Source: Sphaerolaimus hirsutus
Taxonomy: Eukaryota; Nematoda; Chromadorea; Monhysterida; Sphaerolaimidae
Direction: 5' to 3'
Assembly: GCA_964036195.1 (NCBI GenBank)
Contig: OZ038454.1
Span: forward strand, 4,898,001-4,962,000
Length of the DNA: 64,000 bases
The notes under the pieces were generated by a model. It was given only the letters and a program-made list of their open reading frames with translations. It searched no databases and was not told the DNA's origin. Made by a program: the position numbers and the translations under genes. Positions 3,475 through 30,827 of this stretch are shown in pieces. Every line of letters starts with the position of its first letter. Positions within the stretch are counted from its first letter, which is position 1.

Positions 3475-3550
3475 GCTTCCAGCGTAGGCCGGGCAATGAT
3501 GCAGACGCGTATTGTTTTTTTATTATCGTGTCTTAACAATGCTTTCCTGC

Positions 3551-6225: not shown

Positions 6226-6233
6226 CCTGGTCC

Positions 6234-7696
6234 TGACAGTTCCTGAGGACGGACATGGCAACTTACCAATTCCCTTTCGTAATTGCAGCCGGCGGATTAC
6301 TTCGATTACTTGTTAATAAGCCGTAAATAAAATAAAGCCGTAATTAATAAAATTCAAGTTAAAATTCAAGCAGTTAGTATGCTTCAGGGGGACCAAGTTG
6401 GATTCACGGGAACTTTATTTAGCAATATAATCAGAGTCAATTTCACAATAGCTCAAGTGAGTCGTATAGCCTCTAGTGGGTGAAAAAATGTAAAATCAGC
6501 GCGTTTTATAATCACCAAAAATCTACCATAAAAGAAATGAATACTAAATCTGAGACACAACAATTAACCGTAATGAGCGAATTATAAGGCGAATCAATGA
6601 TCACTGAAAAACTGTTAACGTAGCGTACAAGGCACAAGTAATTTAATGAAACGCGGGAAAAAATAACTAATTAAATAAACGGTTGCAAACGTGAATTAAA
6701 CCAAGCGTGAAGTAACTGTGATTATCAATGACGTAATTAAAATACTAATTATCTCGTAGGTGAGTGTCAGGAACTGGGTTTCTATTCAGAGGTTACGGTA
6801 CAGTCTAGAGCAGGTGGTGTGACACGTGTTATCAACCTGCGCCCCTTTAGGTGAAAATATTTTATAGCGCGCCCGACCAAGGCCACAGAAAGAACGCTCA
6901 TTTGCGGGGGTTGTTCAAGGTTATTGCATTGCCGGGTAAGGGTTGGAACTTCGGGCCTGAACACACGCCACAAGACACTAGCACTTGCGAGTTCACCAAT
7001 CACCCTGGGTGATGGGAATAATTAGTTGGCACAGCTGTGCTCTTCACTGTAAACTGTGCTCTGCATGTGTCTTGCAGTCGCATGCCGACAATAATTGCCG
7101 TTTGCCACTTTTCCACCCATTACCTAGTCCTAAATAAAAATGCACTTGGTCGGGGAATTTTCTGAATGTTATCTATCGGGGCGTCTAAGCGTTTAACAGA
7201 GTCAACACCCTTTAGCTTAACTAGAAACATTAAAGCCTTTCTAACCCATTCCCAGACACTGCACCCTTTTGACCAAAAATGTAAACTTGATAAAAACCTA
7301 AAAATTATAACATTCGAAAGTACATATTGGGAAATGCATTTAAAAAACGAAAATACTCACTTAATTAACTTAAAATGCGGGTAACCTAATTAGCTTAATT
7401 AATAAAACATGGAATGAAAAATTAACATCACACGGGAAGTAATTACGTAATTAACGGAAAGGAAAATATTTAATAAAATCATGGCCGCAGTAGTGTCCAT
7501 TCAGGGGTACCGTCCTGGGGCTGCGGCTTCGTTGGCGGATTTGCAGTGCACAGCAAACCGCACGTTCACTGTGACTTCCCTGTGCACCGCGGGCCGTCAT
7601 TCAGTCACACATGGTCGTCCTTGAGTCGTCGGAGTGTCTGCACAAAATTGTCGTTACGTTTTTACGCATGATTGGCTAGCCATATTTCCACCTACA
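6234..7696 (-). repeat. 3' LTR of the Gypsy-class element
   Basis: On the minus strand this 1,463-bp LTR starts TGTAGG and ends CTGTCA. It is near-identical to 34,615-36,078 and more distantly similar to the plus-strand LTR at 61,515-62,978. The short ORFs inside it recur in the other LTR and have no family resemblance. Confidence 0.95.
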
Positions 7697-8282
7697 ATCC
7701 CACCAGCCATTAATTTTTACCTCCGGGCTAAAAACGACATGTTCAGAAAAAGTGTTTTGCACTGTTTTTTGATTATTCAAAAATCATGCCTTCTCTGCAT
7801 TTTTCGGTGGACGGCCGTGGCAGTCACATGCCCTGGGGATGCAAATATGGCTCGTCTTCATTCGAATTATGGCATCAGCTTTCTGCCGTGCCAGCTTTTT
7901 GTGCCCGAAACTTCGAAATTTTGGTTCCCGCACAGGGCTCGATGTGAGAGAAGTTTTTTCTTTTTGAAAATTTTTTTTTTTTTGAAAACTAATTAAGTAG
8001 ATTACTAATTAGTGTTACTTCACAGCCTCGTGCCACTGTTGGACGGGCAGTTTGGGGTCAACATTCAAATTACCTGCTCGACCGACATGTCGCAGTCCGT
8101 GCGTGTGAAAATTGATCGCCGACAAGATTTTCTAATTGTTTTCATGGAATACTAACAAGTATGTTTCTAATTACTGGTTTTTTGTTACAAAGTTGTCTGT
8201 TTTCTCCTGATGACAAAAAGTTGTGCATGAATTATTACACCTCAACATTATTATGACTGGTTTTGACAAAAATTGTTTTGTA
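7697..8282 (-). other. 3' untranslated region with purine-rich tract before the 3' LTR
   Basis: No gene is seen between the helicase stop and the LTR. On the minus strand the bases next to the LTR read GGCTGGTGGGAT, a plausible but short polypurine tract for plus-strand priming. Confidence 0.5.
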
Positions 8283-9029
8283 TCAATTTTCACAATTACC
8301 ATTTTCCATGTGGTGTTCTACCTGTTGCGCTGGAGCCTCCTCCGGTGGCAGTGGGATGGCCTCGACCGCGTCGTGGTGCTCGGGCGGCGGCGAGGGGGGC
8401 TCGGCTACGTTCTGCAGTGCCATGGCCGCCATGTCGTTGCTAATGGGGGAATATTCTTCATTAGGACGGTAAACTGGCTCGACAACGGGCACTACCTCCT
8501 CCACCACCTGCACAACTTCCTCCCGTGCGTCTGCGGAGGAGTCAGAGCCCGAGGAGGCGGTTTCAATATCGGATAAAACTTCCGCCTGCAGTTCTTCTTC
8601 AAGGGCCGGGTATCTATCCGGTCCGATCAGTTCTTTCAAGTCAGCCCATGGGCGCCATTCCGGTGGCCAAAATCCCAGCACATTTCCCCAGATTTGGCCC
8701 GATTCGTAAGAGTAAATTCGGTCGGCTTTGTGCTCGACCGTCAGAAACCGGTGGAAAAAGGTTGACCACAACATGGTCTCGGCATTGGCCACCACGATGC
8801 GCACACATTTGGCGCGGGAGGTGGCTACGTTTCCCTGGGGCAACTCTGCTACAAATCCAACTCTACCGTACGCCTTCTTGGGATCGGCGTCCAGCTGGGC
8901 AGAGTCGGTTGGCGTGCTGCCGCGCACGCAGGAAATGATGACCACTTCCGCTTCGCGGGCCTGTGCTTTGTCGGCAGTAATTACGCGGGTGGCCCAGTAG
9001 GCCGCGTCGTGTTCTGTATGGGCTACTAG
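8283..9029 (-). CDS. Upf1-like SF1 helicase, C-terminal part (after in-frame TGA)
   Basis: This frame continues the 9,030-12,254 ORF in the same phase, separated from it only by a TGA at 9,030-9,032. It supplies the second half of RecA domain 2. The stretch AREAEVVIISCVRGS just after the break matches helicase motif V of Upf1-like proteins (QGRExDxxIxSxVR type). GNVATSRAKCVRIVVAN matches motif VI (NVAxTRAK followed by xxIVGN). The arginine of motif VI expected to contact ATP is present. After the motor comes an acidic, proline- and glutamate-rich tail of about 100 residues with no recognisable domain. The frame ends at a TGA at 8,283. The motif order across the break shows one gene was interrupted, and that the TGA is a lesion or a recoded codon. 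Confidence 0.85.
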   Translation of the reverse strand, partial: LVAHTEHDAAYWATRVITADKAQAREAEVVIISCVRGSTPTDSAQLDADPKKAYGRVGFVAELPQGNVATSRAKCVRIVVANAETMLWSTFFHRFLTVEHKADRIYSYESGQIWGNVLGFWPPEWRPWADLKELIGPDRYPALEEELQAEVLSDIETASSGSDSSADAREEVVQVVEEVVPVVEPVYRPNEEYSPISNDMAAMALQNVAEPPSPPPEHHDAVEAIPLPPEEAPAQQVEHHMENGNCEN

Positions 9030-12000
9030 TCAACTGATTAGGGCGCGCGCCTGCGCCGCATAAAAGCACACAATTAGCAAACTAGCGGGATCTGTGAGAT
9101 CTGCCCAGGGTAGGGTGGGATCTTCTTTCACCGTGGCCACGAGGTAATCGTACAGGTGCAGGATGATGCGCAGTTCCTTCTTGTTGATAATAGACATGCC
9201 CTCTTTCGATTCGCAGCCCTGGTGCACCAACGTCGATGACAGCATGACGCCGTCCTCGAAGTCGCCAGGCGAAGGCAACATGGTGGCGCCGTGCACTGCT
9301 GTGTCGTTGTAGGCGCGTAGCAGTCCATTGTACGCCGCCACCGAGTTAGCCTGAATGAGCTGGCGATGCCCGCGGAACACTGTTTCCAAGTGAACCACGG
9401 GACATAGTTGATATTGTGTGAGCCTATCAATGAGGGTGGGGTCGGGTTTCAGGACGGGCTCCACCCAGTCTTGCACGCGAATCATACGCGTCAATTGTTT
9501 ACTGTCTCCAAATAGAAGTAGCATGCCGTTCACTGGGAGCTGAGCCGCCTGAACCACGCTAATTACGGCAGCGTCAGACGCCAAAGACGCTTCATCAACA
9601 ATTACCGCACACGCCGTCACACTTTTTATACGGGCGTCGTTGGCGGAGTCTAAAGTGACATGGATTTGACCGGGCTGCACCACCTCCAAGAACACCCGGT
9701 GCAGCCTGACCGTAGACCTGACATATTTAGACAGCGCCCTACGCAGCACCTTACCCCAGAATCCCTGGTCAGCTAAGCTAGCCTCTCCAGCCCGGGCGCC
9801 CGCCACGCCTGCCTCGAAGTCATCGAATGGCTGTTTGTCTCCATCTTCGGCGGTGAGAAATGGCACCTGTTCGGTCAGCTGCGCGCGTATAACGGCGTCG
9901 TCCGTGCAGTTGTTGATAATTTTGTCCACCAGTTCGTAGTCTTTCTTGGCGCCGTCGTACTTTTCCAGCGCTGCCGTCCATTTGGGGCTGAGGCGGACAA
10001 TGTTGTGGCCGGTTCGCTGTGCTAGGGTGTGCAGGGTTGGTAATTGGGTCGCGGGGGTGGTGCTATAAGAGGGGTCACTTTCCCACATGGGGCTCAAAAC
10101 ACGCACCGGAAATGCCGCTCTTAATTTCAAAAATTCTTCAAAACCCTCCAGTTTTTGCATTTCAGAAAATGGCGTATCAGCCATAGCGGTCCATTTCGCA
10201 CGTTCCCGCAACAAAACTTCCAAAGCCCCAAAAATATCCTGCTGCCCTAATTTATTCAGGTTGGTCAGGGCCCTGCGCGCTCCTTCGTCAGCCGCCGAGT
10301 TGACCGTGCACGTGATGAGCGTCGAATGGTATTTGGCGTTCGGCTGCTTGTCTGATGGCAAGTCAGAGCCCGCGCGCACCCTGGGTCTCGAGTTATAGTA
10401 ATTATAGCCGCGTGAACACACATACGCCAGTTGATTTTGTGTGGTCGTCTTCCCGGACCCGAAAGGCGAGTCACACATAATCAAAAGGGGTTTGCGCATT
10501 TGCACGGCCGTGATTACAGCTCCTAAAACTTCTACCTGGCCTTGCTGCGGCAGAAACTCACCTAATTTGGCCTGAATCATTTGTTCGTTTTTTCCCCTGA
10601 ACAATGATTCGTACAACTCATTAGCCTCGTGGCTAATTAGCGCCCAGTCAGTTTCGTCATCCAGCAGACGCAAATTCAATATCACAGCTAATTGGATTTG
10701 CGCCTCCAGGGTGAGTACTTTTGACCCCTGAACCACTTTTGGCACCCAGCCGACCGGCGCTTTGTTCAGGGCGGCTTGCAGTGACCGCATGGTTTGGTCA
10801 TAATTGGGCGAGTCGTTTGAGCCGCGCACCATGTACCTTCCACTCTCCAGGGTACGGGGCAGTGCTGACTGCGATGCCGCCATGTCCAATTTTGCATGCA
10901 GCATTGTAGTAGTTGGTTCTGATTCCACACTGGTAATTCTCACTGACAAATTGGGGCTGCCCGCCGCTGGTTTGTCTTCATCTTGTCGGGCCTGCACCAG
11001 ACTCAACACGGACATGGGCGTCGCCTGGTTCAGCAGCTGTGTCTGCGTATTCACCTGCTCCAGCAAACAAACGCGCTGCTCTTCTGGTCCCTCAAAAGTG
11101 TCAGCTTGTAATTCCTCTGGGTCGGGGCGGCGCACCATAATGTCGCATGCAGTGCCCTGCGGCGTGTGTTCCCAGAACACATGTGCGCACACATCCGTTG
11201 CGCGTTTCTCCCGAAACCGCAAAAATGACTCGTTGTAGCAGTGGGCCGCTGCTAAAATGCTCAATTTGTACCTGAGAAATATGTCCATGCTGTCTCGATT
11301 CTCTGTATCTGGCTGGATGCCCGAATTACTGATGTCCTCGGCCGTGGCGACCTGCAGCCCGTACGCATGGCCGTAAAATTCGTCGCCGAACACGTCCAAA
11401 TCGTTCAGGTCGTGATATTCGACGTGGGCCAGCCCCAACTGTCCAGCACTCAAATTTTCCACTCTGCTGTCACTCACATACTCTCTGTGCAAAATGACCA
11501 ACTTTTCCGGCCCGGCATCGCCCCGCTCCGCCGCGCCCAGCGGTTCCAAATTCTTGTAATTCGACGGCGTGAAGGCCGCTCGCAGCCGCGCCGTTTTCCA
11601 GTCGCTCGTATAGGGCTGGTAGCCGGAAGTGTCGCCGCGCGTCAATGTACGTGCCGCTTGAGTGATGCGCCGCGTGCCCTGCGTACTCACTACCACTGGG
11701 GCGGCAACGTTTAAGGGGCACTTTGTCTGATTACCCCATATCGCGATGCCGGTGAACTCCCAGTACCTTGGATTTTCTATTTTCTGTGCGATCGCGGTCG
11801 CCGAGAAACGCATTCCATGGCGCACCAGGGGCAGAAACATCGAGGGGTGTTGTTTCTGAATTCTTGCGCACAAATCCACCAGCTGGGTGGTCCGTTTGTC
11901 CCTGGCCGCTTTGGCCCGCTTATTTGAATAATAAAAATACGGATAGGCCTCATCCGCATTCACCCACTGCTCATTTTCGCTGAGTATCGCCATCGTTTGC

Positions 12001-12254
12001 TCAGAAATTCTCACATGGCACTGATACTCAACATGCCCGTCGGCGCCCGTGTCAATATACACTCTATCTACCCAACCTTCGAATTTCCCTCTGCTGGGGT
12101 AGATTTCCGGTCCGTTTTGCATCTGCTGCGCGCGGTAAAGTTGTCGCGGGGGAATGGTTCCACCGCCGCAGGCACCATGCGTATTTGTCTCCTTGGACTT
12201 TATGGGCGGGGCGTCTGCACCTTCAAATGGGCGTTTGCGAGAAGCCGAAGCCAT
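9030..12254 (-). CDS. Upf1-like SF1 helicase encoded by the retrotransposon, N-terminal part
   Basis: The ORF has its own ATG (12,254), 230 bp after the integrase stop. It is 1,074 codons long before an in-frame TGA and about 1,320 with the continuation. Seen in the sequence: Walker A SPFGSGKTTT at about residues 596-605, a motif Ia-like TCTVNSAADE near 648, Walker B VDEAS at 886-890, motif III FGDSKQLT at 915-922, and FRGHRQLI near 960 in the position of the arginine-containing motif IIIa/IV. With motifs V and VI downstream this is the SF1 Upf1-like signature (DNA or RNA unwinding driven by ATP). Residues 1-560 match nothing I can name; the start is basic and may be a nuclear targeting region. 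A helicase is not a normal component of Ty3/Gypsy elements. It might unwind nucleic acid during reverse transcription, integration or export, or counter host RNA decay; these are guesses. Confidence 0.88.
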   Translation of the reverse strand: MASASRKRPFEGADAPPIKSKETNTHGACGGGTIPPRQLYRAQQMQNGPEIYPSRGKFEGWVDRVYIDTGADGHVEYQCHVRISEQTMAILSENEQWVNADEAYPYFYYSNKRAKAARDKRTTQLVDLCARIQKQHPSMFLPLVRHGMRFSATAIAQKIENPRYWEFTGIAIWGNQTKCPLNVAAPVVVSTQGTRRITQAARTLTRGDTSGYQPYTSDWKTARLRAAFTPSNYKNLEPLGAAERGDAGPEKLVILHREYVSDSRVENLSAGQLGLAHVEYHDLNDLDVFGDEFYGHAYGLQVATAEDISNSGIQPDTENRDSMDIFLRYKLSILAAAHCYNESFLRFREKRATDVCAHVFWEHTPQGTACDIMVRRPDPEELQADTFEGPEEQRVCLLEQVNTQTQLLNQATPMSVLSLVQARQDEDKPAAGSPNLSVRITSVESEPTTTMLHAKLDMAASQSALPRTLESGRYMVRGSNDSPNYDQTMRSLQAALNKAPVGWVPKVVQGSKVLTLEAQIQLAVILNLRLLDDETDWALISHEANELYESLFRGKNEQMIQAKLGEFLPQQGQVEVLGAVITAVQMRKPLLIMCDSPFGSGKTTTQNQLAYVCSRGYNYYNSRPRVRAGSDLPSDKQPNAKYHSTLITCTVNSAADEGARRALTNLNKLGQQDIFGALEVLLRERAKWTAMADTPFSEMQKLEGFEEFLKLRAAFPVRVLSPMWESDPSYSTTPATQLPTLHTLAQRTGHNIVRLSPKWTAALEKYDGAKKDYELVDKIINNCTDDAVIRAQLTEQVPFLTAEDGDKQPFDDFEAGVAGARAGEASLADQGFWGKVLRRALSKYVRSTVRLHRVFLEVVQPGQIHVTLDSANDARIKSVTACAVIVDEASLASDAAVISVVQAAQLPVNGMLLLFGDSKQLTRMIRVQDWVEPVLKPDPTLIDRLTQYQLCPVVHLETVFRGHRQLIQANSVAAYNGLLRAYNDTAVHGATMLPSPGDFEDGVMLSSTLVHQGCESKEGMSIINKKELRIILHLYDYLVATVKEDPTLPWADLTDPASLLIVCFYAAQARALIS

Positions 12255-12359: not shown

Positions 12360-12390
12360 ACAAGCTTCCTAAAAAACACACGCACACTTT
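12360..12390 (-). promoter_or_regulatory. Candidate splice acceptor upstream of the helicase
   Basis: On the minus strand a GTGTGTGTTTTTTAG tract precedes GAAGC, with the AG at 12,370-12,369. This is a strong pyrimidine tract and acceptor, 115 bp before the helicase ATG and after the integrase stop. Together with the donor at 33,861 it could produce a spliced helicase mRNA. Usage is inferred only. Confidence 0.5.
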
Positions 12391-12483: not shown

Positions 12484-13980
12484 TTAGTCGTCGCCGTATA
12501 ATTCACTGTAAGAAGGGGGAATTAAATATTCACTGGTTGCTTTGCAACGATCTGCATGAACTACATATATTTTCTTATTAATATTGTTGAACAAAGTCAC
12601 TAATGGGTGGGCATAATCAATGCACTCATACGGACCGATAAAGCGAGGCGCGAATTTCTTACTAGGGCCCGTCAACTGAGTAATACGCGGCGTGTACACG
12701 CGTACCGCTTGCCCGCGTTGCACATTCAATCGGCGCGCACGGCAATTGGCGTAAAATTGCTCCTTTTGCTGCGCCTTTGCTAAAGCGGTGTGCGCTGCTT
12801 CTCGCGCTGTGGTCAGACGCGCGCCTAATTCATTTATAAGAGCGCGCTTATGCGGCAATGAGGGCAATGCCTCGGTGTCAGGGGGAGGCTCGATCATACG
12901 CTCCCACATGGACGCAGCAGGCTTGCCAAATAGCAACGCATAGGGGGTGGTTTGCAAAGAAGGGTGTTTCGATGTATTGTACGCATGTACAGCGGCGCCT
13001 AAATGTATGTCCCAATCGTCATGTGTACGATTTACATAGTGGGATACTATTTCCATCAGAACACCATTCCTACGTTCCACCATTCCATTACTCTTGGGGG
13101 TGTACGCAAAAGACGTGTGTTGAGTCGCGTTCAAATATTGTAAAAGCTTGGCAAAAGTGCCCTCAGTAAAGCTAGGGGCGTTATCACTGAGTATAATGGC
13201 CGGCACACTAAATATAGGCAAAATGTGCAACAAAAATGCAAATGATACTGTGTCTTGTTTTATGTCGGGAACGGGCACGGCAATCCCAAAACGTGTGCAC
13301 TGATCAACAAATACTAACACATGTCGGTTTCTGCGTTTCGTGGTTAGTAAAGGTCCTATTGCGTCTACTGCTATCACATCACCTGGCCTTTTGGCTACCT
13401 GGCGGCACACCATTTGAGTTCGCATTGCCGCTCTGAGACCTTTCTTGGCGTTGCACGAAGGGCAAGTAGCAACCCAGCGCGCACTTTCTGGCCGCATTCC
13501 TGGAAACCACGCGAATTCCTGCAACCTTTCAAATGTTTTTATTATTCCTAAATGGCCCGCCGTGGGGTGATTGTGAGCTAATTCTAACACGAATGGAACT
13601 AATTCCGACGGGATACACACTGGGTCGTATAGCTGTATACCTGGTATCTGGGACGTTCCCGCTTGGCGACGTAATAAACCGTATTGATCAATAAAATACG
13701 GCGCGGCGCTGTAAAAATTATCTGCGCGACACACTTCTATAGTTGTGGCTATGTACGGTTCTTCTGCTTGTAGTCGCTTCAACTTATCAACCGAAGTCAT
13801 GGGAGGTAGCGCCATGATTGTACTGCGCTTGGTTACACTCGTTAAACCCGGAACACGTTCATTTCCGGCTCCTGAACCACCAGCCATTGTTCCAGTTCCA
13901 GGCGCTTCCGCATTCTGCTGCCGCTCTCGCAGCCCAGGTGACTCCGCCTCTTTTCGCCCGCGCGTCCGGTCGCTGATTGG
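12484..13980 (-). CDS. pol: Integrase (Ty3/Gypsy class)
   Basis: The open frame runs from the TGA at 13,981 to a TAA at 12,484. Numbering from the ATG at 13,887, the zinc-binding HHCC region has a histidine pair near 107/112 (HPTAGH) and cysteines at 142 and 145. The catalytic core has D175, D235 (LSDNAPSF) and E271 (GMVERRNG). The last two are 35 residues apart, the DD35E arrangement that cuts and joins LTR ends. A GPY/F-like stretch (FAPRFIGPYECIDY) lies near the C-terminus, and no chromodomain is visible. The frame is the same as the RNase H segment upstream, so pol was continuous through 13,981. It is intact as a domain, but in this copy it could only be made by reading through the upstream stops. 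Confidence 0.92.
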   Translation of the reverse strand, partial: PISDRTRGRKEAESPGLRERQQNAEAPGTGTMAGGSGAGNERVPGLTSVTKRSTIMALPPMTSVDKLKRLQAEEPYIATTIEVCRADNFYSAAPYFIDQYGLLRRQAGTSQIPGIQLYDPVCIPSELVPFVLELAHNHPTAGHLGIIKTFERLQEFAWFPGMRPESARWVATCPSCNAKKGLRAAMRTQMVCRQVAKRPGDVIAVDAIGPLLTTKRRNRHVLVFVDQCTRFGIAVPVPDIKQDTVSFAFLLHILPIFSVPAIILSDNAPSFTEGTFAKLLQYLNATQHTSFAYTPKSNGMVERRNGVLMEIVSHYVNRTHDDWDIHLGAAVHAYNTSKHPSLQTTPYALLFGKPAASMWERMIEPPPDTEALPSLPHKRALINELGARLTTAREAAHTALAKAQQKEQFYANCRARRLNVQRGQAVRVYTPRITQLTGPSKKFAPRFIGPYECIDYAHPLVTLFNNINKKIYVVHADRCKATSEYLIPPSYSELYGDD

Positions 13981-14376: not shown

Positions 14377-15664
14377 TGTGCTGACCGTGGCAAAATGGAT
14401 GGATAAAGAAATACAGAGAATTGATAATTAGGCTCATATTTATCTATTTACCTATTTGCACCAATTTACATTTCATGCACCATATTAATTTACCGCAAAT
14501 TGTATTTCCTACACTTATTACGTATCCATGGAGAATATTCAATTAGGAAAGTGTTCTATAAGTTATTGATAGGTTTATGTGGAATGTTTAGGTTAAAAGG
14601 TCAAATATGTTATTATTAGGTGTATTAATATAAAATTAGGCTCATTCAACTCGCCGTAATTTTCTGATCATGATTATACATACATTTGCATAGTTTACTT
14701 GCAGTTTACAAAAGTCAAATCTTGTAAATATTTACGTGCTGCGTAATTATCTAGGCCAGCGTCCTAATAGAGAAATGGTGCCCTGCGTGCAACTAGCATT
14801 TACTTTACAAAGCCCTTCGCATAGGTATAATTGTCATAACCCTGTTCACAACTATTTATATTTACTTAATAATTATAATACCTTGCTCAATCGAATATAT
14901 TATAAACTCTGCTCAATTACAATACCCATTTACCTCAAATAAGTCCCAATTTGCTAGATTATTCAACATACGTTTCCAGGAAGTGATTATTATTATCATG
15001 TTGAATATACCTTATTCTATTTACGTCATTAGGAACATTTACACTACTATTTACAGTTTTCAAACCCTATCTTATTAGTTCCAATGTGCGTCAATGTTTT
15101 CTGACAAATTGAAGCAAATTAGTAAATCGGCCGAGTTTGCCGACTTCGCGCCTCTCAAGATTAATAGTTTTTCTATTAACCCAATTTGTACTTGGTATTT
15201 CTTTACCATAATTGTTTGAATGTATGCACGCATAGAATAAGCCAACTGTTTCTGTTAAATGTGTCTTATTGCTATATTAGTGGTTTATTTGTGCATTTGT
15301 ATTAGGAAATTACTGTAGCTGTTTTTCTATACGTGATTTCCGTGTCTTAGCTACTTTGAGAGTTTTTACTTCAGTCTGCGGACCCACCCCAAGTGAACAA
15401 AATAAGCTAGCGATAGAAACTTCGACTAGGAAGCTCGCTAGGCTTTGCGCTTTTGTAACACGCTGTATCTGATCGAAATAAAGTACCTGAAACAATTCGA
15501 ACCCCCTTTCAACACGCAACTACGAAATAAACTCAACTTGGCTGTCGACAAGTGGACGTTCGGCAACAACGGGAAATCAACCACTCTAAAGGCCGTTTCT
15601 CACTACGGTCTTGAAGCAGCCGGATTCGGTGGTAGAAGACGCTGACTTCGGTGGCTTCATCACA
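14377..15664 (+). repeat. 5' LTR of the BEL/Pao element
   Basis: It starts TGTGCTGACC and ends CTTCATCACA, obeying the TG...CA rule. An AATAAA lies at 15,477-15,482. The small ORFs inside are duplicated in the 3' LTR and match no family. Confidence 0.96.
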
Positions 15665-16891
15665 TGGCGCAGCGAGCAGGGTGATTGCATGACATTGTGC
15701 TATCACCAAGCCGGAACGGACATTGTGCGGCAGTTGGCAGAACTTCAAAAGTCCTGCTGAACATCAATTGGCCTTGGCTGAGCGTTGGCTGTTGATTTGC
15801 AGACAGCATTGTGCCAGAGTCACGGCACTCCTGTCTACATCCTGGGAGCGGTTCTACGCTCACGCGCGGAGGACACTGGAGTTCTGACAAGCCTGTCAGG
15901 ATTTCAGGCAGCTTTCACCAGTGTTCTGGCAAGGTGCTAGACGCTGGGCGGCACCGGCATTTGACAAGGAGTCATTGTCGGACGGTGGTCAAACTTTTGC
16001 TGGACGCTCCTGGACATCCGGACGCCAGTGACCGCTCGCACGTCCTTCCTAAGCCAAGGGAGGGTGACCTGACGGAGACAGGATCGCCACAAAGCCACGC
16101 TAGTCAAAGGGCTGTTTTTGGGCATTCGCGGAGGTCCCTCGCTCCACTGGGTAAGAGTGGACTCATACCTCGGAAGTGCAAAAGTAGGGGTATCAGTGTA
16201 CAAAGGGCTGTAGCTGACAGAGGGCTGTAGCTGACAGAGAGTGGATTTGAAAACCAAGTATTAGGATACTTGGTAGCGTGTAGGGGCTTTGCGGAGCTCC
16301 CATCAAATATACACGCTGTGCCTGCTCGGTACCATCAGATCAGACAGCACAAAAGTGCCAGAATTCTGCATTGCACAAGCGCAATTGCAGAGCAGTGTAC
16401 AGAAACACTGCCCAGAATCAGAAAGTGCACCAGAGTGCACAGAAACGTGTCACGGGCGACACGGCAAGCGCAACACTGCGCACAGCGGCACAGGAGCCGC
16501 TCAGGAAAGCAAGTGGCCGGCGTGGTCACAAGGCACACAGGCGTGCCAGAAAGAGCGCCAGAGCGCTCAGAAAGAGTGTGTACGGACCCTCTTTGGGCGC
16601 ACACTGCTGGGCAAATAACTTGTTTATTGTCCAGGTGGATTTGACCGGTGTGTTGAAGTCAACGCGTGTAAACAATCACGTCAGGGGCTTTAGGAACACA
16701 CCTGGTGCCAGTGCAGTAAAGGTCAACGCGTGAGAACACGTCAGGGGCCTGTAGGACTGCATTGGTATTGTGCGTGGCACAACAAATCCGTAGTGCACAG
16801 AGCACTACACAGAAACACGCAGAGAAGCGTCACAAGCGTCACAGGAGACGCACTATAAAGAGAAACAGTGAAGGAAAATTCATCAGCGAAA
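15665..16891 (+). other. BEL/Pao leader with primer-binding site
   Basis: The leader begins TGGCGCAGCGAGCAGGG immediately after the LTR. It starts with TGG as expected for pairing with a tRNA 3' CCA; which tRNA is not decided. Two local duplications occur: GGGCTGTAGCTGACAGA repeated near 16,205-16,240, and a roughly 70-bp imperfect repeat starting GTCAACGCGTG at about 16,658 and 16,722. ORFs of 100-140 codons here do not resemble proteins. Confidence 0.6.
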
Positions 16892-17713
16892 ATGGTTTCG
16901 CCAACGGGTCACATCAGAAAGACCCTGGGGCCAGCAAAGCACAGGGTGGAAAGTAGATTGGCAAGAGAATTTGCCAAATATGACCTGGAACTATTTGCGG
17001 AAGCATCAAAGGATGATAAGAGAACAGAGATGAGAAGAGTGATTGCATCTGTCAAACAGGAGGGTGCAAAATTGGAAAGTGCAATGAATGCAGTGAAAAC
17101 TCAATTTGACGCATGGAGGGATATCGTCAAGGACATTGACGAACCCGACCAGATGGAACAAGAACAGAAGATATACCAAGACTCATATGAGGAATATGCA
17201 AATATGTCGGACTTGGTGACACAGAAAGTAGTAGCCATGAATGTGTACATCGAAGAGTTGCAAGACATGATCCAGCAACAGAGCGGAAATACCATGTATG
17301 AAGTCAATACAGCATTCATACAGCAGATGGCTGCCCAGATGGCTCTGACAGCTCAGGGAGCTGCTCCGGGGGCCAGTTCAACCAATGCAACCACAGCAAA
17401 GAGCGTCAAATTGCAGAAACTGGAAGTTGAACAGTTTACTGGGGAAATTGTCAAATTTCGATCATGGTGGCAAATGTTCGAATCCCACATTCACAATCGG
17501 ACAGATTTGGAGGACATTTCCAAGTTCTCATACTTGAGGAGCTTGTTGAAAGGCTCAGCATTTGGCATGATCAGTGGATTGAGTGTGACCGCAGAAAATT
17601 ATGCACCCGCAATTGCAATGCTCAAAATGAGATATGACCAGCCAGTTGTGGTCAGAAACACGCTGATGAGTAATATCATGAAGTTGCGACAGGCCAGGAA
17701 TACCTGCAATTGA
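16892..17713 (+). CDS. gag: BEL/Pao Gag, N-terminal part
   Basis: The start chosen is the ATG at 16,892; the frame also extends upstream to a GTG at 16,868. After an alpha-helical N-terminus, the stretch VEQFTGEIVKFRSWWQMFE, followed by ISKFSYLRSLLKGSA and then AENYAPAIAMLKMRY, is the conserved core of the Pao-type Gag family (DUF1759). The frame ends at a TGA (17,711) just after MKLRQ, where Gag should continue. The missing continuation is in the +1 frame from about 17,694. This is a break in mid-Gag, unlike a normal gag-pol junction. Confidence 0.9.
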   Translation: MVSPTGHIRKTLGPAKHRVESRLAREFAKYDLELFAEASKDDKRTEMRRVIASVKQEGAKLESAMNAVKTQFDAWRDIVKDIDEPDQMEQEQKIYQDSYEEYANMSDLVTQKVVAMNVYIEELQDMIQQQSGNTMYEVNTAFIQQMAAQMALTAQGAAPGASSTNATTAKSVKLQKLEVEQFTGEIVKFRSWWQMFESHIHNRTDLEDISKFSYLRSLLKGSAFGMISGLSVTAENYAPAIAMLKMRYDQPVVVRNTLMSNIMKLRQARNTCN

Positions 17714-20309
17714 AAGGCTGCTCCAGCAGTTGGAGTCACTGGGCGAATCAGTGGAACATCCAATGCTGTTGAGCCAGCTGCAACAGAAAGTGCCACCCGA
17801 GGTTCTCAGAGAAATCCAGAAGGAACAGGGAACTGAGGAAGCCTTGACGGTGGAAAAATTCAGAAAGCTGTTTGGCCAGCAGCTAGCGCTCAGTGAGGCT
17901 GTACAGCACGCACAGCAAACTGAGGCACCAGTTCAGCAATCGCGCCAAGGATTCTGGAATAATCCTCGCGCACAGCAATTCAATAATCGATTCCAAGGCA
18001 ATGGGAATCGATTCAGAGGGCCAGAGAACCCAAGGACCAGCACAGGGAGCATGTCTGTGATCCAGAATGGTCAGAGTGCACCACAGGCTGGATTCATGAA
18101 TCCTGGGAGGCCGTGTGTGTTCTGCAATGACACACAGCAATTACACTTTAATGATAAGTGTCCAAAGTTCAAAACTGCCAGAGAAAGGAGAGTGATTTTG
18201 TCAAAGGCAGAGCGATGCCTGAGATGCCTGCAGAAAGGGCATTACATGAATCAATGTCAATTTACGAGAAGTTGCTTCTATTGCAAGTCTAATAGGCACC
18301 ACACTGCGGTGTGCCCAGAGAAATTTGGTGACAATGGCAATGGAAACGTTGGACGGCAAATTCCAGCGTTCAGAGCGAATGGTCAACAGAATGGCCAGCA
18401 ATCAGCAAACAATGGCAGAAAGTCTGTGCCGACGGCCGGTCGACCAGCACAGAGCCAACAGAGAAAGGCCACAGTGAATTGTGTCACTGTGGAAGAAGCT
18501 GGACCAGAAGTGGTAGAGACAGAAACCATATCCAGCACAGTGGTTACAGAACCAAATACAAAGCAACAGAATACGTCAGTGAACCTGTCAGTAAACAGGA
18601 ATATGTCAATGTTGATGACAGCCAGAACCGTGATTGAGGCTTCAGGAATGGATACAGAGATGGAGCCTGAACAGCCACCACTACAGATTCAAGCGTTCCT
18701 GGACACAGGATCCCAGGGAACGTACATGTCAGAGAAAGTGGCCAAGAAACTCAATTTGAAAAGTACAGGTGAACACCACATCCAGGTGTACACATTCGGA
18801 AATGAAAAGCCGCACTATAAAGTAGTACAGCAAGTGGAATTCAGAATGCGGCTCAGAAATGGCCAGAAAGTTGATATGGTGGCTGATGTGGTCCCGACGT
18901 TGACCACAGAACAAGTCAAAGTGCCTGTGTCAGAACAGGACGAAAAGTACCTGCAGAAGTACTTCCCGGATGAGAGCTACTTTGCAGACAGAATTCCCAA
19001 GGAAAAAGGGACAGAGGGCAAGTTCAAGCCAGACATTATAGTGGGCTTGAATTATTTCTGGGACTTGATGTCCAGAAACACCAGCACCACCAGACTTCCG
19101 TCAGGATTGTATGTCATTCCATCAGAATTGGGATTGCTGATGGGAGGTGGGCAGCTGACGAGCAACAGAAATCAATGGACCACGGATAGCGCATATTCGG
19201 TGGTGGTCAACACAATTGTGCATCAAATTCAGAGAGAAAAGTGGTATGAGGAAGCACCGTTGTCAATTGCTCCTGTACCAAATGTCAAAGACATGGATAG
19301 ACTGGATACCATTGGCATAATGGACCAGCCAGACCTCGTTGAGGACGATGAGGCCATCAAGCAATTCAATGAGAGTGTACAGAGAAACCCAGATGGACGG
19401 TACTCTGTAAAGTTCATGTACAAACCGAATTTGCATGAACTCCCAGATAACAAAGCAATGGCGTTCAAGAGGTTCAGGTACCTCACCAACAGGCTCAAGA
19501 GAGACCCAGAATTACTGGAGAAAATTCAGGCAATCATGAAAACACAGGAGGAGCAAGGAGTAATTGAGAAAGTCCAAGAGGATATTATGGATGGCAGAAA
19601 GTTCCATATATTGCCTCATCAACCAGTGATAACGCCAGAGAAAACTACCACAAAGGTCAGAGAGGTATATGATGCCTCAGCAAAACCGCCAGGCATGCCA
19701 AGCTTGAATGAGTGCATGTACCGCGGTCCAGTTATACTACCACAGCTGGTAGGGATGCTGATGCGATTCCGGTTGAATGGAATCGCCCTGGTCGCAGACA
19801 TAGAGAAAGCATTTCTGCAGATTAGTCTACAGGACAGTGACAGAGATGTAACAAGATTTCTGTGGTACAAAGATCCCACGAAACCATCCATGGAGGACAA
19901 CATTCAGATTTACAGATTTGCCAGAGTACCATTTGGTATAATCTGCAGCCCAGCGCTGCTGGCGCTGACAGTCAGATACCACCTGAATCAAGCTGGCACA
20001 GAAAATGCAAAATTGATCGATGAAAATCTGTATGTGGATAATTTGATCCTCAGTGTGGACACAGAGCAGAAAGCAATCGAATTGTACCAGGAATCCAAAG
20101 TGTTGTTCACAGAGGCACAGATGAATCTGAGAGAATGGAACAGCAACAATAAGAGCTTTACTTGGCAATTGGCAGAGTCAGATGTAGCCAAGGAAATTGT
20201 CACAACAGTCCTAGGAATGAAATGGGACACAGAGAGCGACCAGATGTGGCTGAAAACGCCAAAGACAGTTCAGCAAAGAAAGAAAGTAAAAGGACAGTTG
20301 CAAAGGTGA
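17694..20309 (+). CDS. pol: BEL/Pao Gag C-terminus, protease and reverse transcriptase
   Basis: Numbering from the ATG at 17,730, three zinc knuckles lie at about 129-144, 163-176 and 182-195 (for example CLRCLQKGHYMNQC). An aspartic protease with FLDTGSQGTYMS follows at 323-334. The RT then shows MPSLNECMYRGP, VADIEKAFLQI, FARVPFGIICSPALL and the catalytic LYVDN near 767-771, the YVDN-type box of BEL/Pao. The frame runs past the RT and stops at 20,309. The true path moves to the -1 frame within 20,230-20,305. Confidence 0.93.
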   Translation, partial: PGIPAIERLLQQLESLGESVEHPMLLSQLQQKVPPEVLREIQKEQGTEEALTVEKFRKLFGQQLALSEAVQHAQQTEAPVQQSRQGFWNNPRAQQFNNRFQGNGNRFRGPENPRTSTGSMSVIQNGQSAPQAGFMNPGRPCVFCNDTQQLHFNDKCPKFKTARERRVILSKAERCLRCLQKGHYMNQCQFTRSCFYCKSNRHHTAVCPEKFGDNGNGNVGRQIPAFRANGQQNGQQSANNGRKSVPTAGRPAQSQQRKATVNCVTVEEAGPEVVETETISSTVVTEPNTKQQNTSVNLSVNRNMSMLMTARTVIEASGMDTEMEPEQPPLQIQAFLDTGSQGTYMSEKVAKKLNLKSTGEHHIQVYTFGNEKPHYKVVQQVEFRMRLRNGQKVDMVADVVPTLTTEQVKVPVSEQDEKYLQKYFPDESYFADRIPKEKGTEGKFKPDIIVGLNYFWDLMSRNTSTTRLPSGLYVIPSELGLLMGGGQLTSNRNQWTTDSAYSVVVNTIVHQIQREKWYEEAPLSIAPVPNVKDMDRLDTIGIMDQPDLVEDDEAIKQFNESVQRNPDGRYSVKFMYKPNLHELPDNKAMAFKRFRYLTNRLKRDPELLEKIQAIMKTQEEQGVIEKVQEDIMDGRKFHILPHQPVITPEKTTTKVREVYDASAKPPGMPSLNECMYRGPVILPQLVGMLMRFRLNGIALVADIEKAFLQISLQDSDRDVTRFLWYKDPTKPSMEDNIQIYRFARVPFGIICSPALLALTVRYHLNQAGTENAKLIDENLYVDNLILSVDTEQKAIELYQESKVLFTEAQMNLREWNSNNKSFTWQLAESDVAKEIVTTVLGMKWDTESDQMWLKTPKTVQQRKKVKGQLQR

Positions 20310-23300
20310 CTGCGGGATGTTTTGATCCAATGGGACTCGTCAGTCCTGTCCTACTGCCAGCAAAGAGATTTTTGCAGACATTATGGCATTCAGGACCAAG
20401 TGCCAAAGAGTGGGATACTCCCCTGTCTGAGGAACAGACAGCAATTTGGCAACAATTGGAGACAGAATTGCTCAAGGTTGGACAGATCAAGTTCAACAGA
20501 AATTTGAATTATCAGAGTGGTGCAGATGCACAACTGCACATTTTCGTTGATGCCTCAGCAATGGCATACAGCGCAGCGGCATACATATGCCAGAAAACAG
20601 AAAATGACAGCGGCACATCAAGCCTGCTGTACTCCAGATTGAGACTAGCTCCAAAGAAACCAGAAGTGACAATTCCACGGCTGGAATTGTTAGCGATGTT
20701 GATCGGCAGCAGAATGTCAAAGTTTATTCACAAAGAGCTCAAGGACGTCAAATTCAGTCAAACAGTTGTATGGTCAGATTCAACCTGTTGTCTGAAGTGG
20801 CTAACAACAGCGAAGCCACTGGCATGTTTTGTCAAAAACAGATTGGATGAAATCAGGAAAATTCAGAGTGAGACAGAGAACATGCACATCAGACACATCA
20901 CAGGACTGGAGAACCCAGCTGACATGGCCACAAGAGGCATGAATATGTCAGAGTTGGAAGGCAGTAACCTGTGGTGGAAGGGGCCAGAATGGCTAATGAC
21001 TGGAGAGTGGCCAGAGCCAAAAGTGGAGCCAGTCACGCCAGAAGTAATGGCAGAAATCAAGAAAGAAGAACTCAAGTTCCCAAAAGCCAGTCCAATTTAC
21101 CTGGGTGCCACACAGCAAGTGGTCAGTGACCCAGATACCAGCAATGAGCAAGTTGATGAAAGCAAGCAAAGCAACCCATTGGGAATTGAGATTCAGAGAT
21201 TCTCATCACTGACGAAATTACTGGATGCAACAGTATACGTGATGAGATTTGTGCGACAGATGCACAAAAAGCGCAGCAAAAATGACAGTCAGAATGGATT
21301 GTCAGAAATCATGAAAAGTATCTGTGGTACAATAAAACCACAGGGAATTATCAGTATTGAAGAGAGAGAGATTGCGTTGAAATATTGGATCAAAGTGACG
21401 CAACAGAATCATTACAAAGGAGTGGCAGAGATTCTGGCAACAGGCCACAGCAAAGGCAGCCAGAATGGCAAGAAAACAGCTGCAGACCAGCAGTTGATTA
21501 GATGGCTCAATGTGCAAATGCATCAGGATGGAATCTTGAAATGCCACGGCAGAATGGAGCATACAGACCCACAGGAGGTCACAGTGCCACTCATACTGTT
21601 GCCAGCAACGGCTACAGTGACTCAGCTGATCGTCAGAGACCAGCATGAGAAGTTAATGCACGCAGGAGTGCAACACACATTGGCAGCAATCAGACAAAAG
21701 TACTGGATTACACAGGGCAGACGGGTGATCTATAATGTGACCAGAACCTGCCCAATCTGTAAGAAATTGGGAGCGAAGCCGTACCAGCTTCCACCAATGC
21801 CAGATTTACCAGAAACCAGAGTTCAGAGAGCCAGACCGTTCCAGTACATGGGCTTGGATTATTTGGGACCAGTTTGGTACAAAGTGGACAAAGATCACAG
21901 GAAAATGTGGATCTGTTTGTTCACATGTATGGTGACACGTGCAGTTCACCTGGAAAGTGTGCTGGACATGACGGCACAAGAATTCCTGAATGCAGTCAGG
22001 AGATTCATCGCCAGGCGCGGAAAGCCTGAGGCAGTGATTTCAGACAATGCGACGCAATTCAAATTGACAGAGAAAGTGCTCAACACAAGCACTGACAAGG
22101 TCATTAACACTGGGAAAGAATGGTCAGAAATGGTCAAAAGTGGAGCAGTACAGACATATTGCTCACAGCAACAAATCCAGTGGAACATGACTACTCCTAT
22201 GGCACCATGGCAGGGAGGTGTCTATGAGAGAATGGTGGGCATCACCAAGAAACATTTCAAGGCAGCTGTGGGGCACAGAATGTTAACCCTGCAAGAATTG
22301 TTGACACTTCTGCCAGAAGTTGAGGCAGTGATCAACAGCAGGCCAATCTCTTACATCTATGGTGATGTAAAAAGTCTCAGAGTGCTGACGCCAAAAGACT
22401 TCCTGACAGGGGAAGGTCAGATTGGAGCACCACAGTTTGATGCAGACAAAGATGGAGAATTTGTGCCCAGAATGGATAACGCAGCGAAACTGCAGAAATA
22501 TTGGGAGACAACCCAGCAAACTTTGGATAAGTTCTGGGACTTATGGCATCAAGAGTACATTCCGAGCTTGAGGGAAAGAACTCAGGTGACGCACAAACAT
22601 GGCAGATTGACAGCGACTCAAGAACCCAAAGTGAATGAAGTTGTGCTGATTTATGAAGAGAACATGCCCAGAGGTGCATGGAAGATGGGTCGCATCGAGC
22701 AGTTAGAATCCAGCAAAGATGGACAGATTCGCTCAGCAAAAGTCAGAACTGCCAACAGAAATGTGGTCAGCAGACCACTCAATCACTTGTATCCGCTGGA
22801 AATCAATTCAAAGACAATGGATATCCCAGAGACAGCAGTGACAGTCAAAGTGGATTTACTGGACTCGGCAATTGTCCAGAAACATGTCAGAAATCAGAGC
22901 TCGAACAGAGACTCTGTACAAAACCCTGCTCAGAGGAACTCAGCATCGGATAGAGTCCTGAGGAATGCAACAGGGAAAACCACAGCAACCACCAGCAGTC
23001 TAGTGATTGGAATGCTGTGTATGATATTGATGTTGACAGGCATGTCAGAGTCAGCAACGCTGAGAGAAGCCGGCAAAGCTTACAGCGAAGTATTTTCCAG
23101 AACATACGTTCTAGAAACCTCGACAGTAAGGCCACCATCATTGGCAGCGCATCATGGATTGCCGCCTTTGCCTTCAGAATGGCCACCAAAATCTGTCAGA
23201 GAAATGCAGACTTATGAGAGATTCAAAGATGCAATCAAGGACCATCCTGTGGAACAGGTGATCAGCTCACAAAGCCAGAAGTATCAGATTTGCACCAGTG

Positions 23301-25537: not shown

Positions 25538-25579
25538 CGTTGCTGCAACAACGGGGTGCAGCAACTCTTACGCCCGGAG

Positions 25580-26867
25580 TGTGCTGACCGTGGCAAAATG
25601 GATGGATAAAGAAATACAGAGAATTGATAATTAGGCTCATATTTATCTATTTACCTATTTGCACCAATTTACATTTCATGCACCATATTAATTTACCGCA
25701 AATTGTATTTCCTACACTTATTACGTATCCATGGAGAATATTCAATTAGGAAAGTGTTCTATAAGTTATTGATAGGTTTATGTGGAATGTTTAGGTTAAA
25801 AGGTCAAATATGTTATTATTAGGTGTATTAATATAAAATTAGGCTCATTCAACTCGCCGTAATTTTCTGATCATGATTATACATACATTTGCATAGTTTA
25901 CTTGCAGTTTACAAAAGTCAAATCTTGTAAATATTTACGTGCTGCGTAATTATCTAGGCCAGCGTCCTAATAGAGAAATGGTGCCCTGCGTGCAACTAGC
26001 ATTTACTTTACAAAGCCCTTCGCATAGGTATAATTGTCATAACCCTGTTCACAACTATTTATATTTACTTAATAATTATAATACCTTGCTCAATCGAATA
26101 TATTATAAACTCTGCTTAATTACAATACCCATTTACCTCAAATAAGTCCCAATTTGCTAGATTATTCAACATACGTTTCCAGGAAGTGATTATTATTATC
26201 ATGTTGAATATACCTTATTCTATTTACGTCATTAGGAACATTTACACTACTATTTACAGTTTTCAAACCCTATCTTATTAGTTCCAATGTGCGTCAATGT
26301 TTTCTGACAAATTGAAGCAAATTAGTAAATCGGCCGAGTTTGCCGACTTCGCGCCTCTCAAGATTAATAGTTTTTCTATTAACCCAATTTGTACTTGGTA
26401 TTTCTTTACCATAATTGTTTGAATGTATGCACGCATAGAATAAGCCAACTGTTTCTGTTAAATGTGTCTTATTGCTATATTAGTGGTTTATTTGTGCATT
26501 TGTATTAGGAAATTACTGTAGCTGTTTTTCTATACGTGATTTCCGTGTCTTAGCTACTTTGAGAGTTTTTACTTCAGTCTGCGGACCCACCCCAAGTGAA
26601 CAAAATAAGCTAGCGATAGAAACTTCGACTAGGAAGCTCGCTAGGCTTTGCGCTTTTGTAACACGCTGTATCTGATCGAAATAAAGTACCTGAAACAATT
26701 CGAACCCCCTTTCAACACGCAACTACGAAATAAACTCAACTTGGCTGTCGACAAGTGGACGTTCGGCAACAACGGGAAATCAACCACTCTAAAGGCCGTT
26801 TCTCACTACGGTCTTGAAGCAGCCGGATTCGGTGGTAGAAGACGCTGACTTCGGTGGCTTCATCACA
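25580..26867 (+). repeat. 3' LTR of the BEL/Pao element
   Basis: It has the same length and ends as the 5' LTR, offset by exactly 11,203 bp, and is followed by the CGTAT target duplication. The preceding bases ACGCCCGGAG are a weak candidate polypurine tract. Confidence 0.96.
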
Positions 26868-26872
26868 CGTAT

Positions 26873-27698
26873 ACTTTCGTAGATTGCACATGCTTCCAGT
26901 GAAATTGCTGGCCATTTGCTTTGGGTTGCACCTAACTTCCGGCTGTAAAAGGCACATGCATGTAGTATTTTTTCGTCCTCTGCTCGTTGTGCTAGCACTC
27001 CTGCAACAGCAATTTTAGAGGCGTCCGTGATAATTATAAACATACGTTTAGGATCGGGAAATTGCAAACATGGGCTTCCTAACAATGCTTCCTTGAGCTT
27101 ATGAAAAGCTTCCAGTGCTTTGGGTTTCGCTGTCAAATCCACCGGGGTGTCGCTATTGTAATTTTCTCTTGGTCCCGTACGCGTGAGATTTGACAAAGGT
27201 ACGGCTAACTCTGCGCATCTGTGAATCATGCGTCTAAAAAACCCTATAGCTCCCAGAAAACCCTTAACCTCTTTTATGGTAGTGGGTACCGGCCAGTCCT
27301 GAATTATGTGGCGTTTGTCATCCGGTACGCACACGCCGTCACGGCCAATCATAAATCCTAGAAAACGTACAGCTGTGACGCGTGTGAAAAAACACTTTTT
27401 TGGACTAATTTTGAAATTATTTCTAATTAATCTTTCCAACACCTGCCCTATGTCGTATAAATGTGTTTCCCAGGTTGCACTATAAATCAGTAAATCGTCG
27501 ATGTATAATAACACATTTCGATGTATTAAGCCGGCCATAGCTAATTCAAAACAGCGCTGCGCTAAACTAGGTGAGCATTTTAATCCCATTGGTAAACGTT
27601 TCAGTTGAAATTGTCCAAAAACATTTCTAAATGACGTAATGTGTCAATCATCTGGATGCAAAGCAATGTTATAGAAAGCTTGATTTATGTCGGCACTG
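26873..27698 (-). pseudogene. pol: RT palm and RNase H N-terminus of the Gypsy element (broken)
   Basis: The frame contains the tail of the RT fingers and palm: PMGLKCSP, the catalytic YIDDLLIY box and the FLGFMIGRDG connection. The RNase H start MFIIITDASKIAVAGVLAQ follows. Three lesions affect it. A 1-bp frame change in a run of five A at 27,701-27,705 separates it from the upstream RT. A TGA at 27,644-27,646 falls shortly before the PMG box, where other Gypsy RTs have a sense codon. The BEL element then cuts it at 26,868. Domain order and spacing are otherwise normal. Confidence 0.9.
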
Positions 27699-30600: not shown

Positions 30601-30827
30601 TCGCACTCGGCGGCGCCCACAGATCGGGGGTTAGAATCAAACTTTTCCAGCGTGACGTCGCCCCAGAAGTTCTGGTACGTCCTTGCTGTTCTGGTAGAGG
30701 CCACACACCTGTACGCTGCCGCACGATATTCTACCATATTTCGCTTGTAGATTGTCAGTGTCAATTTTCGTGGCCGTTCTAATGACGCCGTAGTGTCTAC
30801 AATGGCCGTGCAATTTGGTAGGGGGGG
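27699..30827 (-). CDS. pol: Env-like glycoprotein fused to protease and RT N-terminus
   Basis: The frame is open from 30,857; it has no ATG until 30,737, and entry by -1 frameshift from gag at 30,821-30,827 is likely. Numbering from the codon at 30,764, residues 1-460 form a cysteine-rich ectodomain. It has a furin-type RQKR at 219-222, then a glycine/alanine-rich segment and probable coiled coil. A membrane anchor lies at about 475-505 (WIYLICALVTMQYLLAALM). An aspartic protease follows at about 605-720 with LLDTGAMRSL at 628-637. RT starts near 920 with KYDIGYSELVDYRL and reaches KRMVIDYRRLNA before the frame is lost at 27,701. Placing an envelope between gag and protease is highly unusual. 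The ectodomain resembles that of the nested BEL element. Confidence 0.88.
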   Translation of the reverse strand, partial: PPLPNCTAIVDTTASLERPRKLTLTIYKRNMVEYRAAAYRCVASTRTARTYQNFWGDVTLEKFDSNPRSVGAAECEGMIKYHKCNNGPMTPVSDLDNAWDTQYPTNVSYSGHGLYCCKWVSETTPHCGLFRGEVRMRYGANTMQSTLGEVSKCNYEMGACTLEDGSQLTWKPNPKAECPYEKWREMHGRIRQDIWLADDHTLSLSFRAYEEVESCGIKLWKSDQDIVVAPFEKAVIRSVRQKREQGQPTLGIVSAGQLAASMQAVYETAEQTMRAQAVATCKNVQHFQEFVRLAMSEHATTTARWYMNDNEIIAKPAPDEFLVHKCFAVKTYEIMKEEKSPECYETVPVQVSVHGQNVTLHMNRLTNILHFQAIPGSCTNAHNRVVMLNGQWYKYLLEVGGLEHLPMYNTHSFPQKWQQEKVKDVHHQIFAATTMYNLSELLPTTTLNDVWHAYSIVQQITQGAEPKVESHMQRHRTLAKSVLALGWWDFDTWRTWLQVWIYLICALVTMQYLLAALMAAAPEMAVTLVNWAKEKIKKRPKTEEKSNIIVELAEDRPSEQVKVRTVINPCVGMPSGMPALTGARRFPAIQYSINRKCDLEKESVCMITFSTEERDNIHQVANRREEIVHVYYSPSITITIDGREYRRCLLDTGAMRSLCNRDVLMRHKEKATKHDEVSPIGALRCAADSKLLVLGQMEIPVTMGNHTFGIVFQAVNGLAGEILIGADVLRHMVVDLPARELRIPTANAIIPFDNPDPEVQQRRIYAIVNKKIEILARHEALVTAKLSAPMDEKLFTVMGLDTVGERCGVMAASAAYETSAPVFQVRCANVRNQPVVLQVGQRIAVVEPVDCVLKVKPGNPPAEWVKQCYDRDVCRQVQATEPPPKVAEDKLGPPLQVACPDGHVMEFTVPETLTDERREELKKVILQYKEAFARHKYDIGYSELVDYRLQLVDKKPIACRMYRLSLDDQQYLENHLRCLIEHDIVEPSTSPYCAPMLVVSKPDGSKRMVIDYRRLNAVLHAPQFPLPRLDETVKSLCSCKYF

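Follow-up and report, generated by a model that had tools for sequence, protein, structure and literature searches.

Retrotransposons of a high-copy, recently active Gypsy-type family in the nematode Sphaerolaimus hirsutus carry a helicase as a standard gene, located between the integrase and the 3' long terminal repeat (LTR). We analyzed a window of 64,000 nucleotides (nt) from this genome (assembly GCA_964036195.1, contig OZ038454.1, positions 4,898,001 to 4,962,000), which contains a provirus of about 17.5 kb (by coordinate arithmetic) on the minus strand (36.08–6.23 kb). An earlier note on this DNA had reported a long helicase open reading frame (ORF) between a DD35E integrase and the 3' LTR. 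The ORF is indeed at that location, and LTRs flank all of these genes (Table 1).

We searched the genome from which the window comes (348 Mb in 762 contigs) with the helicase and the integrase as queries. For the helicase, we scored 43 of 592 candidates and fetched 20 copies, including the one in the window. The 43 scored copies are 97–100% identical over residues 1–1074, and almost all of them (41/43) are free of stops in that part. Among the fetched copies, 19/20 have the integrase upstream (in two pieces in copy L012) and 19/20 have the start of an LTR downstream; in copy L016, the 3' noncoding stretch is only partly preserved. For copy L007, the table of integrase copies places the integrase about 12.8 kb upstream (L007 and L032). 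We fetched 10 kb between the L007 helicase and its integrase and found no match to the family's LTR, integrase, reverse transcriptase (RT) or env-pol. Given this distance and the lack of family matches, L007 likely contains an insertion of unassigned sequence.

For the integrase, we scored 91 of 2230 candidates (98–100% identity), and 75/91 are in open frames of 914–919 amino acids (a count by eye). A scored helicase follows the integrase at 217–234 nt in 29 of the 91 copies. Of the other 62 copies, we read 800 nt downstream of the first 20 in table order, and all 20 had the N-terminus of the helicase, starting at 213–234 nt. So, all 49 of the integrase copies that we examined, out of 91 scored, have the helicase 213–234 nt downstream. 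An integrase followed directly by an LTR, which the earlier note had named as evidence against its proposal, was found in none of the 20 fetched downstream stretches and in none of the 49 examined copies. Because the best-preserved copies come first in both tables, decayed copies are under-represented.

The recurring layout of integrase, helicase, and LTR supports the earlier proposal that the helicase is cargo of the element. That a host gene or pseudogene was caught by chance in a single copy is almost certainly wrong: the other genome copies exclude a capture limited to the window, and the helicase is present in 49/49 examined integrase copies and is under purifying selection (see below). 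The composition of the gene would fit a capture, as the GC content at third codon positions is 0.62–0.63 in the helicase versus 0.37–0.53 in gag, pol, and integrase. Because of this difference, the helicase may have a foreign or later origin than the rest of the element. We also considered a separate helicase-bearing element that inserted into the provirus, and rejected it: the flanks share only 8–9-nt matches, and the position of the helicase is constant in the copies examined.

A second copy of the element (L021) begins within the window, 25 kb away and in the opposite orientation. Its own 5' and 3' LTRs are identical over 1471 nt. In the six LTR pairs that we compared, the substitutions were 0/1471 (the second copy), 1/1393, 1/1483, 9/1468, 10/1472, and 11/1470 (the window copy). 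Because some of these pairs differ by only 0–1 bases, the family is young and has moved recently.

In the window, the helicase is encoded by 1074 codons followed by another 248 codons in the same frame, with a single TGA between them. These had been described as two frames; the positions were correct, but they are one frame, cut by a stop that is unique to the window copy among the 20 fetched. At the local base composition, a frame of 1332 codons that has no more than one stop would arise by chance with a probability of about 3e-23 (treating bases as independent). The TGA (9030–9032) is followed by CTAG, a known context for readthrough. We rejected programmed readthrough, as 19/20 copies have no stop at codon 1075.

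Sequence profiles show that the full predicted protein, of 1323 amino acids, is a Upf1/Sen1-type helicase of superfamily 1 (SF1), with an N-terminal region of about 570 amino acids that is unmatched in Pfam. Both pieces in the window independently reach the cut-off for the Pfam family AAA_12: residues 575–1074 of the first piece match positions 4–125 of the profile (E = 3.4e-8; 33.7 bits, with a cut-off of 27), and the second piece matches positions 139–194 of 195 (E = 3.9e-10; 40.1 bits). Two other copies, translated as found, match AAA_12 with E = 8.1e-25 and 3.2e-25. The earlier note had called for a Pfam search of both frames and had argued for a Upf1-like SF1 helicase, and the matches in Pfam, NCBIfam, and the PDB agree with this identity. 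AAA_11 reached just 19–23 bits in the window pieces and the two other copies, below its cut-off of 27. The NCBIfam model for IGHMBP2 matched one copy with E = 1.7e-13, and its 49.9 bits are far below the cut-off of 348.9.

The motifs SPFGSGKTTT, VDEAS, FGDSKQLT, VVIISCVRG, and NVATSRAK are all present, and in the correct order, as had been claimed. With the usual names of the motifs, motif I is at residues 596–605, Ia at about 646–656, Ic at 866–871, II at 884–890, III at 912–921, and IV at 957–966, followed by V and VI. There is no variation in motifs I, Ic, and III (20/20 copies) or in motif VI (13/13).

In the PDB, the best matches to residues 575–1323 of one copy were three sequences named "5'-3' RNA helicase-like protein" (E = 2.7e-6 to 1.4e-5). 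The weaker matches included UPF1 (from E = 0.05), NAM7 (0.21), SMUBP-2 (0.43), and SEN1 (2.4), so that only the first 3 of 12 sequences were significant. None of the 12 PDB sequences, all those with an E of 10 or less, is a nidovirus chain. We presume that the top chains are Sen1. This might point to a nuclear, Sen1-like role, in which the helicase would target RNA:DNA hybrids or the termination of transcription at the element, or would help with integration; a short basic stretch close to the N-terminus of the helicase (identified by eye) would suit such a role. The match is modest, though, and to one family of chains, and SEN1 itself reached just E = 2.4, so we consider this role highly doubtful.

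Another proposal is that the helicase unwinds double-stranded or hybrid RNA and thereby keeps small RNAs from silencing the element. This has been proposed for the viral helicases of insect retrotransposons, with weak suppressor activity in a plant system (PMC6338049). The insect helicases are of the RNA-virus type, while in our element the matches to Viral_helicase1 (12.2–14.0 bits for the window pieces and 13.6 and 12.9 bits for two other copies; E = 0.045–0.16) are below the cut-off of 21. We consider suppression of silencing to be improbable. We also found no Pfam match to Rep or Pif1, which would be the signature of a Helitron, in the helicase, and the helicase sits between LTRs.

The region before residue 575 (583 codons, counted from the preceding stop) gave no Pfam hits with an E of 10 or less, and so none to the UPF1-type N-terminal Cys/His zinc domain, as judged from sequence profiles only. 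A Upf1-type motor without the zinc-rich domain could shield the element's RNA from host surveillance, either by competing with host UPF1 or by clearing decay factors. Both the Upf1-type core and the unmatched N-terminal region fit this idea, and the stop codon of gag is followed by more than 10 kb of further RNA. UPF1 is reported to bind long retroviral 3' regions, and an RNA element of Rous sarcoma virus to counter UPF1-dependent decay (PMC3484045). On the other hand, the chains named "5'-3' RNA helicase-like protein" outscore UPF1, the absence of the zinc domain is deduced from the lack of a Pfam match and not from a structure, and a helping effect of UPF1 on HIV-1 RNA has been reported as well (PMC11360189). 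Overall, we think that protection from surveillance is unlikely to be the function.

Searches of protein databases with the whole helicase, or with residues 575–1074, found no relatives among the approximately 8000 candidates that shared the most words with the query in each search. An AlphaFold model of the 1074-residue piece, built without relatives, failed, with a mean pLDDT (predicted local distance difference test) of 32.9.

To measure constraint on the helicase, we compared the proportions of synonymous and nonsynonymous differences (pS and pN) among copies. Across 190 pairs of the 20 fetched copies, the mean pS and pN were 0.163 and 0.011 for residues 1–574 (a ratio of 0.068) and 0.108 and 0.0092 for residues 575–1074 (a ratio of 0.086). 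In the copies whose frame has 1323 codons (13/20), pN/pS past codon 1075 was 0.087, with 0.034 for the stretch with motifs V–VI and 0.126 for the tail. Because these ratios are low, selection maintains the helicase; the constraint is somewhat looser than in the integrase (pN/pS = 0.042 in 18/20 copies), yet it is clear. Variants in the helicase that are common to at least two copies are mostly synonymous (229 synonymous and 35 nonsynonymous), and the mean distance between copies is 0.040 in the helicase versus 0.059 and 0.072 in two flanking noncoding stretches (19 copies and 171 pairs each). The frame is open to its natural end (1322–1324 codons) in 15/20 copies. For the start of gag, the window copy and the second copy differ by 13 synonymous and 5 nonsynonymous changes, excluding one codon with multiple changes.

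What would the helicase do for the element? We tentatively favor, while giving it somewhat less than an even chance, that this standard and selected gene is expressed from a spliced message and that its product aids reverse transcription by working on RNA or cDNA of the element itself. A splice-donor-like site in the LTR is present in 3/3 LTRs compared, and an acceptor-like site in the gap between integrase and helicase is present in 20/20 copies, so a spliced helicase message is plausible. The helicase would then be made from a subgenomic RNA, much like an env or ORF3 gene, with the acceptor about 115 nt before the ATG. Its product would act within the particle or while attached to the genomic RNA, and would move 5'-3' and remove structure, proteins, or RNA:DNA hybrids, so that the 17.5-kb RNA could be copied into DNA. 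In this role, it would stand in for the host UPF1 that is packaged by HIV-1. HIV-1 virions are reported to package UPF1, which raises the yield of reverse transcripts in a manner tied to its ATPase (PMC11360189), and HIV-1 is described as having no helicase gene of its own (PMC3484045). The ORF3s of rotifer elements are reported to be expressed via spliced messages (PMC5408684).

Several observations weigh against this reading. The donor and acceptor are short motifs, and there are further donor-like sites in the 2 kb that we scanned. Among the 20 copies, motif II has the variant DKAS once, and motifs Ia and IV have single variants. Five of the 20 frames stop early, at 1074 (the window copy), 1108, 1119, 1178, and 1183 codons. 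Helicase variants that are found in a single copy (199 synonymous and 138 nonsynonymous) are less constrained than the shared ones, which suggests that young changes have been less filtered by selection, and the ranking of the best-preserved copies first may have lowered pN/pS. Because the stretch before residue 575 has no Pfam match, targeting to gag or to RNA is a guess. Also, MOV10, which is a relative of UPF1, inhibits reverse transcription (PMC3484045, PMC11360189), so a helper role is not predicted from the fold alone.

SF1 helicases have been found in retrotransposons before: viral SF1 domains are reported in insect LINEs and in two ORFs related to Ty1/Copia (PMC5563155, PMC6338049). 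These share the conserved motifs with our helicase. However, they are RNA-virus-type domains that form part of LINE proteins or are joined to a Copia enzyme, which is an RNase H in Aedes aegypti and an integrase in Leptopilina boulardi (where the ORF is interrupted by stops), whereas ours is a separate gene of the Upf1/Sen1 type and is standard in a Gypsy family. Bdelloid rotifers have LTR elements that captured an enzyme gene behind pol, as in our family, but the enzymes are a GDSL esterase and a DEDDy exonuclease, and the word helicase appears there just once, within the reference list (PMC5408684). The giant Burro elements of planarians are Gypsy elements that resemble ours in their large size, their accessory domains, and the location of env between gag and protease, which was reported as the first case of env between gag and pol (PMC6431247). 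Burro elements exceed 30 kb and encode a giant polyprotein with BIR, BCL2, and ankyrin motifs, and the available portions of the source mention no helicase (PMC6431247). Our element has no single giant gag-env-pol frame of that kind, and no Pfam match to apoptosis or ankyrin motifs at E up to 0.001. The cellular proteins UPF1, SEN1, and SMUBP-2 share the AAA_12 core and the order of the motifs with our helicase, which differs from them in that its N-terminal region is long and unmatched, its motifs Ia and II are about 230 residues apart, its tail is acidic, and a provirus encodes it. HIV-1 with packaged UPF1 may share the working principle that we propose, but there the helicase belongs to the host (PMC11360189). 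In the open-licence PMC literature, as far as its text was accessible, we found no helicase in a Gypsy element and no Upf1/Sen1-type helicase in an LTR element; subscription journals, preprints, and Repbase were beyond the scope of this search. So, a Upf1/Sen1-type helicase that is standard and selected in a Gypsy family appears to be new, while LTR elements with captured genes were already known.

HIV-1 has been described as relying on helicases of its host, of which UPF1 helps it and MOV10 restricts it. A family with its own preserved Upf1/Sen1-type motor uncouples the helicase from the host's decay pathway, and could be used to test what a motor of this kind does, be it to help reverse transcription, to guard RNA against surveillance, or to permit larger retroelement genomes. 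This family also joins Burro as a Gypsy case with env between gag and pol. We speculate, although we think it rather unlikely, that a lineage with this arrangement made a captured Upf1/Sen1-type helicase essential, which would make it the first retroelement to bring along a processive motor for copying a genome much larger than the usual ~10 kb. If the helicase is an essential replication gene, then the family is a natural test of whether the supply of helicase limits the size of retroviral genomes.

The coordinates of the provirus and of the other features in the window are given in Table 1. We classify the provirus as Ty3/Gypsy from its gene order, Integrase_H2C2 and rve domains, YIDD, and a GPY-like motif, which we take to be marks of this group. 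The gene order is gag, protease, RT, RNase H, and integrase, where the matches to aspartic protease are all below their cut-offs. An env-like glycoprotein lies between gag and protease, and its match is marginal: Monjiviricetes_fusion scored 24.1 bits (E = 1.1e-5) against the whole env-protease ORF and 27.3 bits against the env part only, with a cut-off of 27. The env ORF is in another frame than gag, with an overlap of 58 nt; a frameshift, splicing, or an indel could join the two. A run of seven C lies within this overlap of the env-like frame (27699–30857, minus strand) with the end of gag.

Table 1. Features of the helicase-bearing provirus, its second copy, and the nested element (window coordinates)
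Feature	Position	Strand	Remarks
5' LTR	34410..36078	-	TGTAGG...CTGACA, 1669 nt; repeat with 6229-7698 at 99.2%; inner end set from other copies
Splice-donor-like GTAAGT	34642..34647	-	In LTR; putative role
Primer-binding-site-like TGG... stretch	34390..34407	-	2 nt inside LTR (AC between); putative role
gag ORF, 1165 aa	30797..34294	-	Retrotrans_gag 3.3e-6; PNMA 1.7e-5, under its cut-off
ORF: env-like fusion glycoprotein, aspartic protease, RT start	27699..30764	-	Pfam; RT start by eye
RT (YIDD) and RNase H	26868..27643	-	RVT_1, RT_RNaseH, RT_RNaseH_2; interrupted by BEL insertion
Integrase (H2C2, DD35E)	12484..13980	-	Integrase_H2C2 and rve; D-to-E spacing 35 residues
Splice-acceptor-like TTTTTAG (then GAAG)	12369..12375	-	Integrase-helicase gap; putative role
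Helicase ORF through TGA	9030..12254	-	1074 aa; N-terminal region 1-574, then helicase motifs I-IV
Helicase frame continuation	8283..9029	-	248 codons; motifs V and VI, acidic/proline-rich tail; AAA_12
Noncoding stretch, helicase to 3' LTR	7697..8282	-	
3' LTR	6229..7696	-	Outer end short by ~200 nt in window copy
Nested BEL/Pao element, not part of helicase element	14377..26867	+	Peptidase_A17, DUF1759; LTRs 99.92% identical; 5-bp target duplication CGTAT
Second copy start: 5' LTR, leader, gag start	61515..64000	+	Continues past window; has integrase, helicase, 3' LTR (L021)

The window copy is damaged. The RT frame is broken near 27.6–27.7 kb, and there is a stop between RNase H and integrase, besides the TGA in the helicase, the BEL insertion, and the truncated 3' LTR. 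A protein search with the integrase found 5 distant relatives (26–30% identity), one of which is labeled with an organism, Plakobranchus ocellatus. We found no relatives in viral contigs (scanned with the helicase, its second piece, the integrase, and env-pol), in a collection of genome contigs (scanned with the integrase), or in phages (searched with tblastn).

The direct repeats at 34610–36080 and 6229–7698 differ by 8 transitions, 3 transversions, and 1 gap per 1471 nt. In the copies that we compared, the repeat continues for 203–205 nt beyond the 6229/34610 ends, which gives an LTR of the form TGTAGG...CTGACA, followed by AC and a TGG stretch that is suited as a primer site. So, the LTR is about 1670 nt long and not 1470 nt, and the 3' LTR in the window lacks the last ~200 nt. 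Among the four copies with both ends read, two have an exact 4-bp target duplication and two have one with 1 mismatch. The window copy, with its truncated 3' end, shows no target duplication.

A 12.5-kb BEL/Pao element is nested inside the Gypsy-type element of about 17.5 kb, and its insertion point is in the RNase H region. The BEL/Pao element is very young, with 1 difference per 1288 nt between its LTRs, and has a Monjiviricetes_fusion-like env of its own (E = 4.3e-16) at the end of its pol frame. Elsewhere in the window, repeats of the TGGCGCCAAGCGCCA type cluster at 40456–41388, and stretches related to them lie near 52.6 and 55 kb. Positions 440–4350 contain several blocks of short tandem or duplicated repeats, spaced by about 18, 39, and 103 nt, as well as a duplication of ~770 nt.

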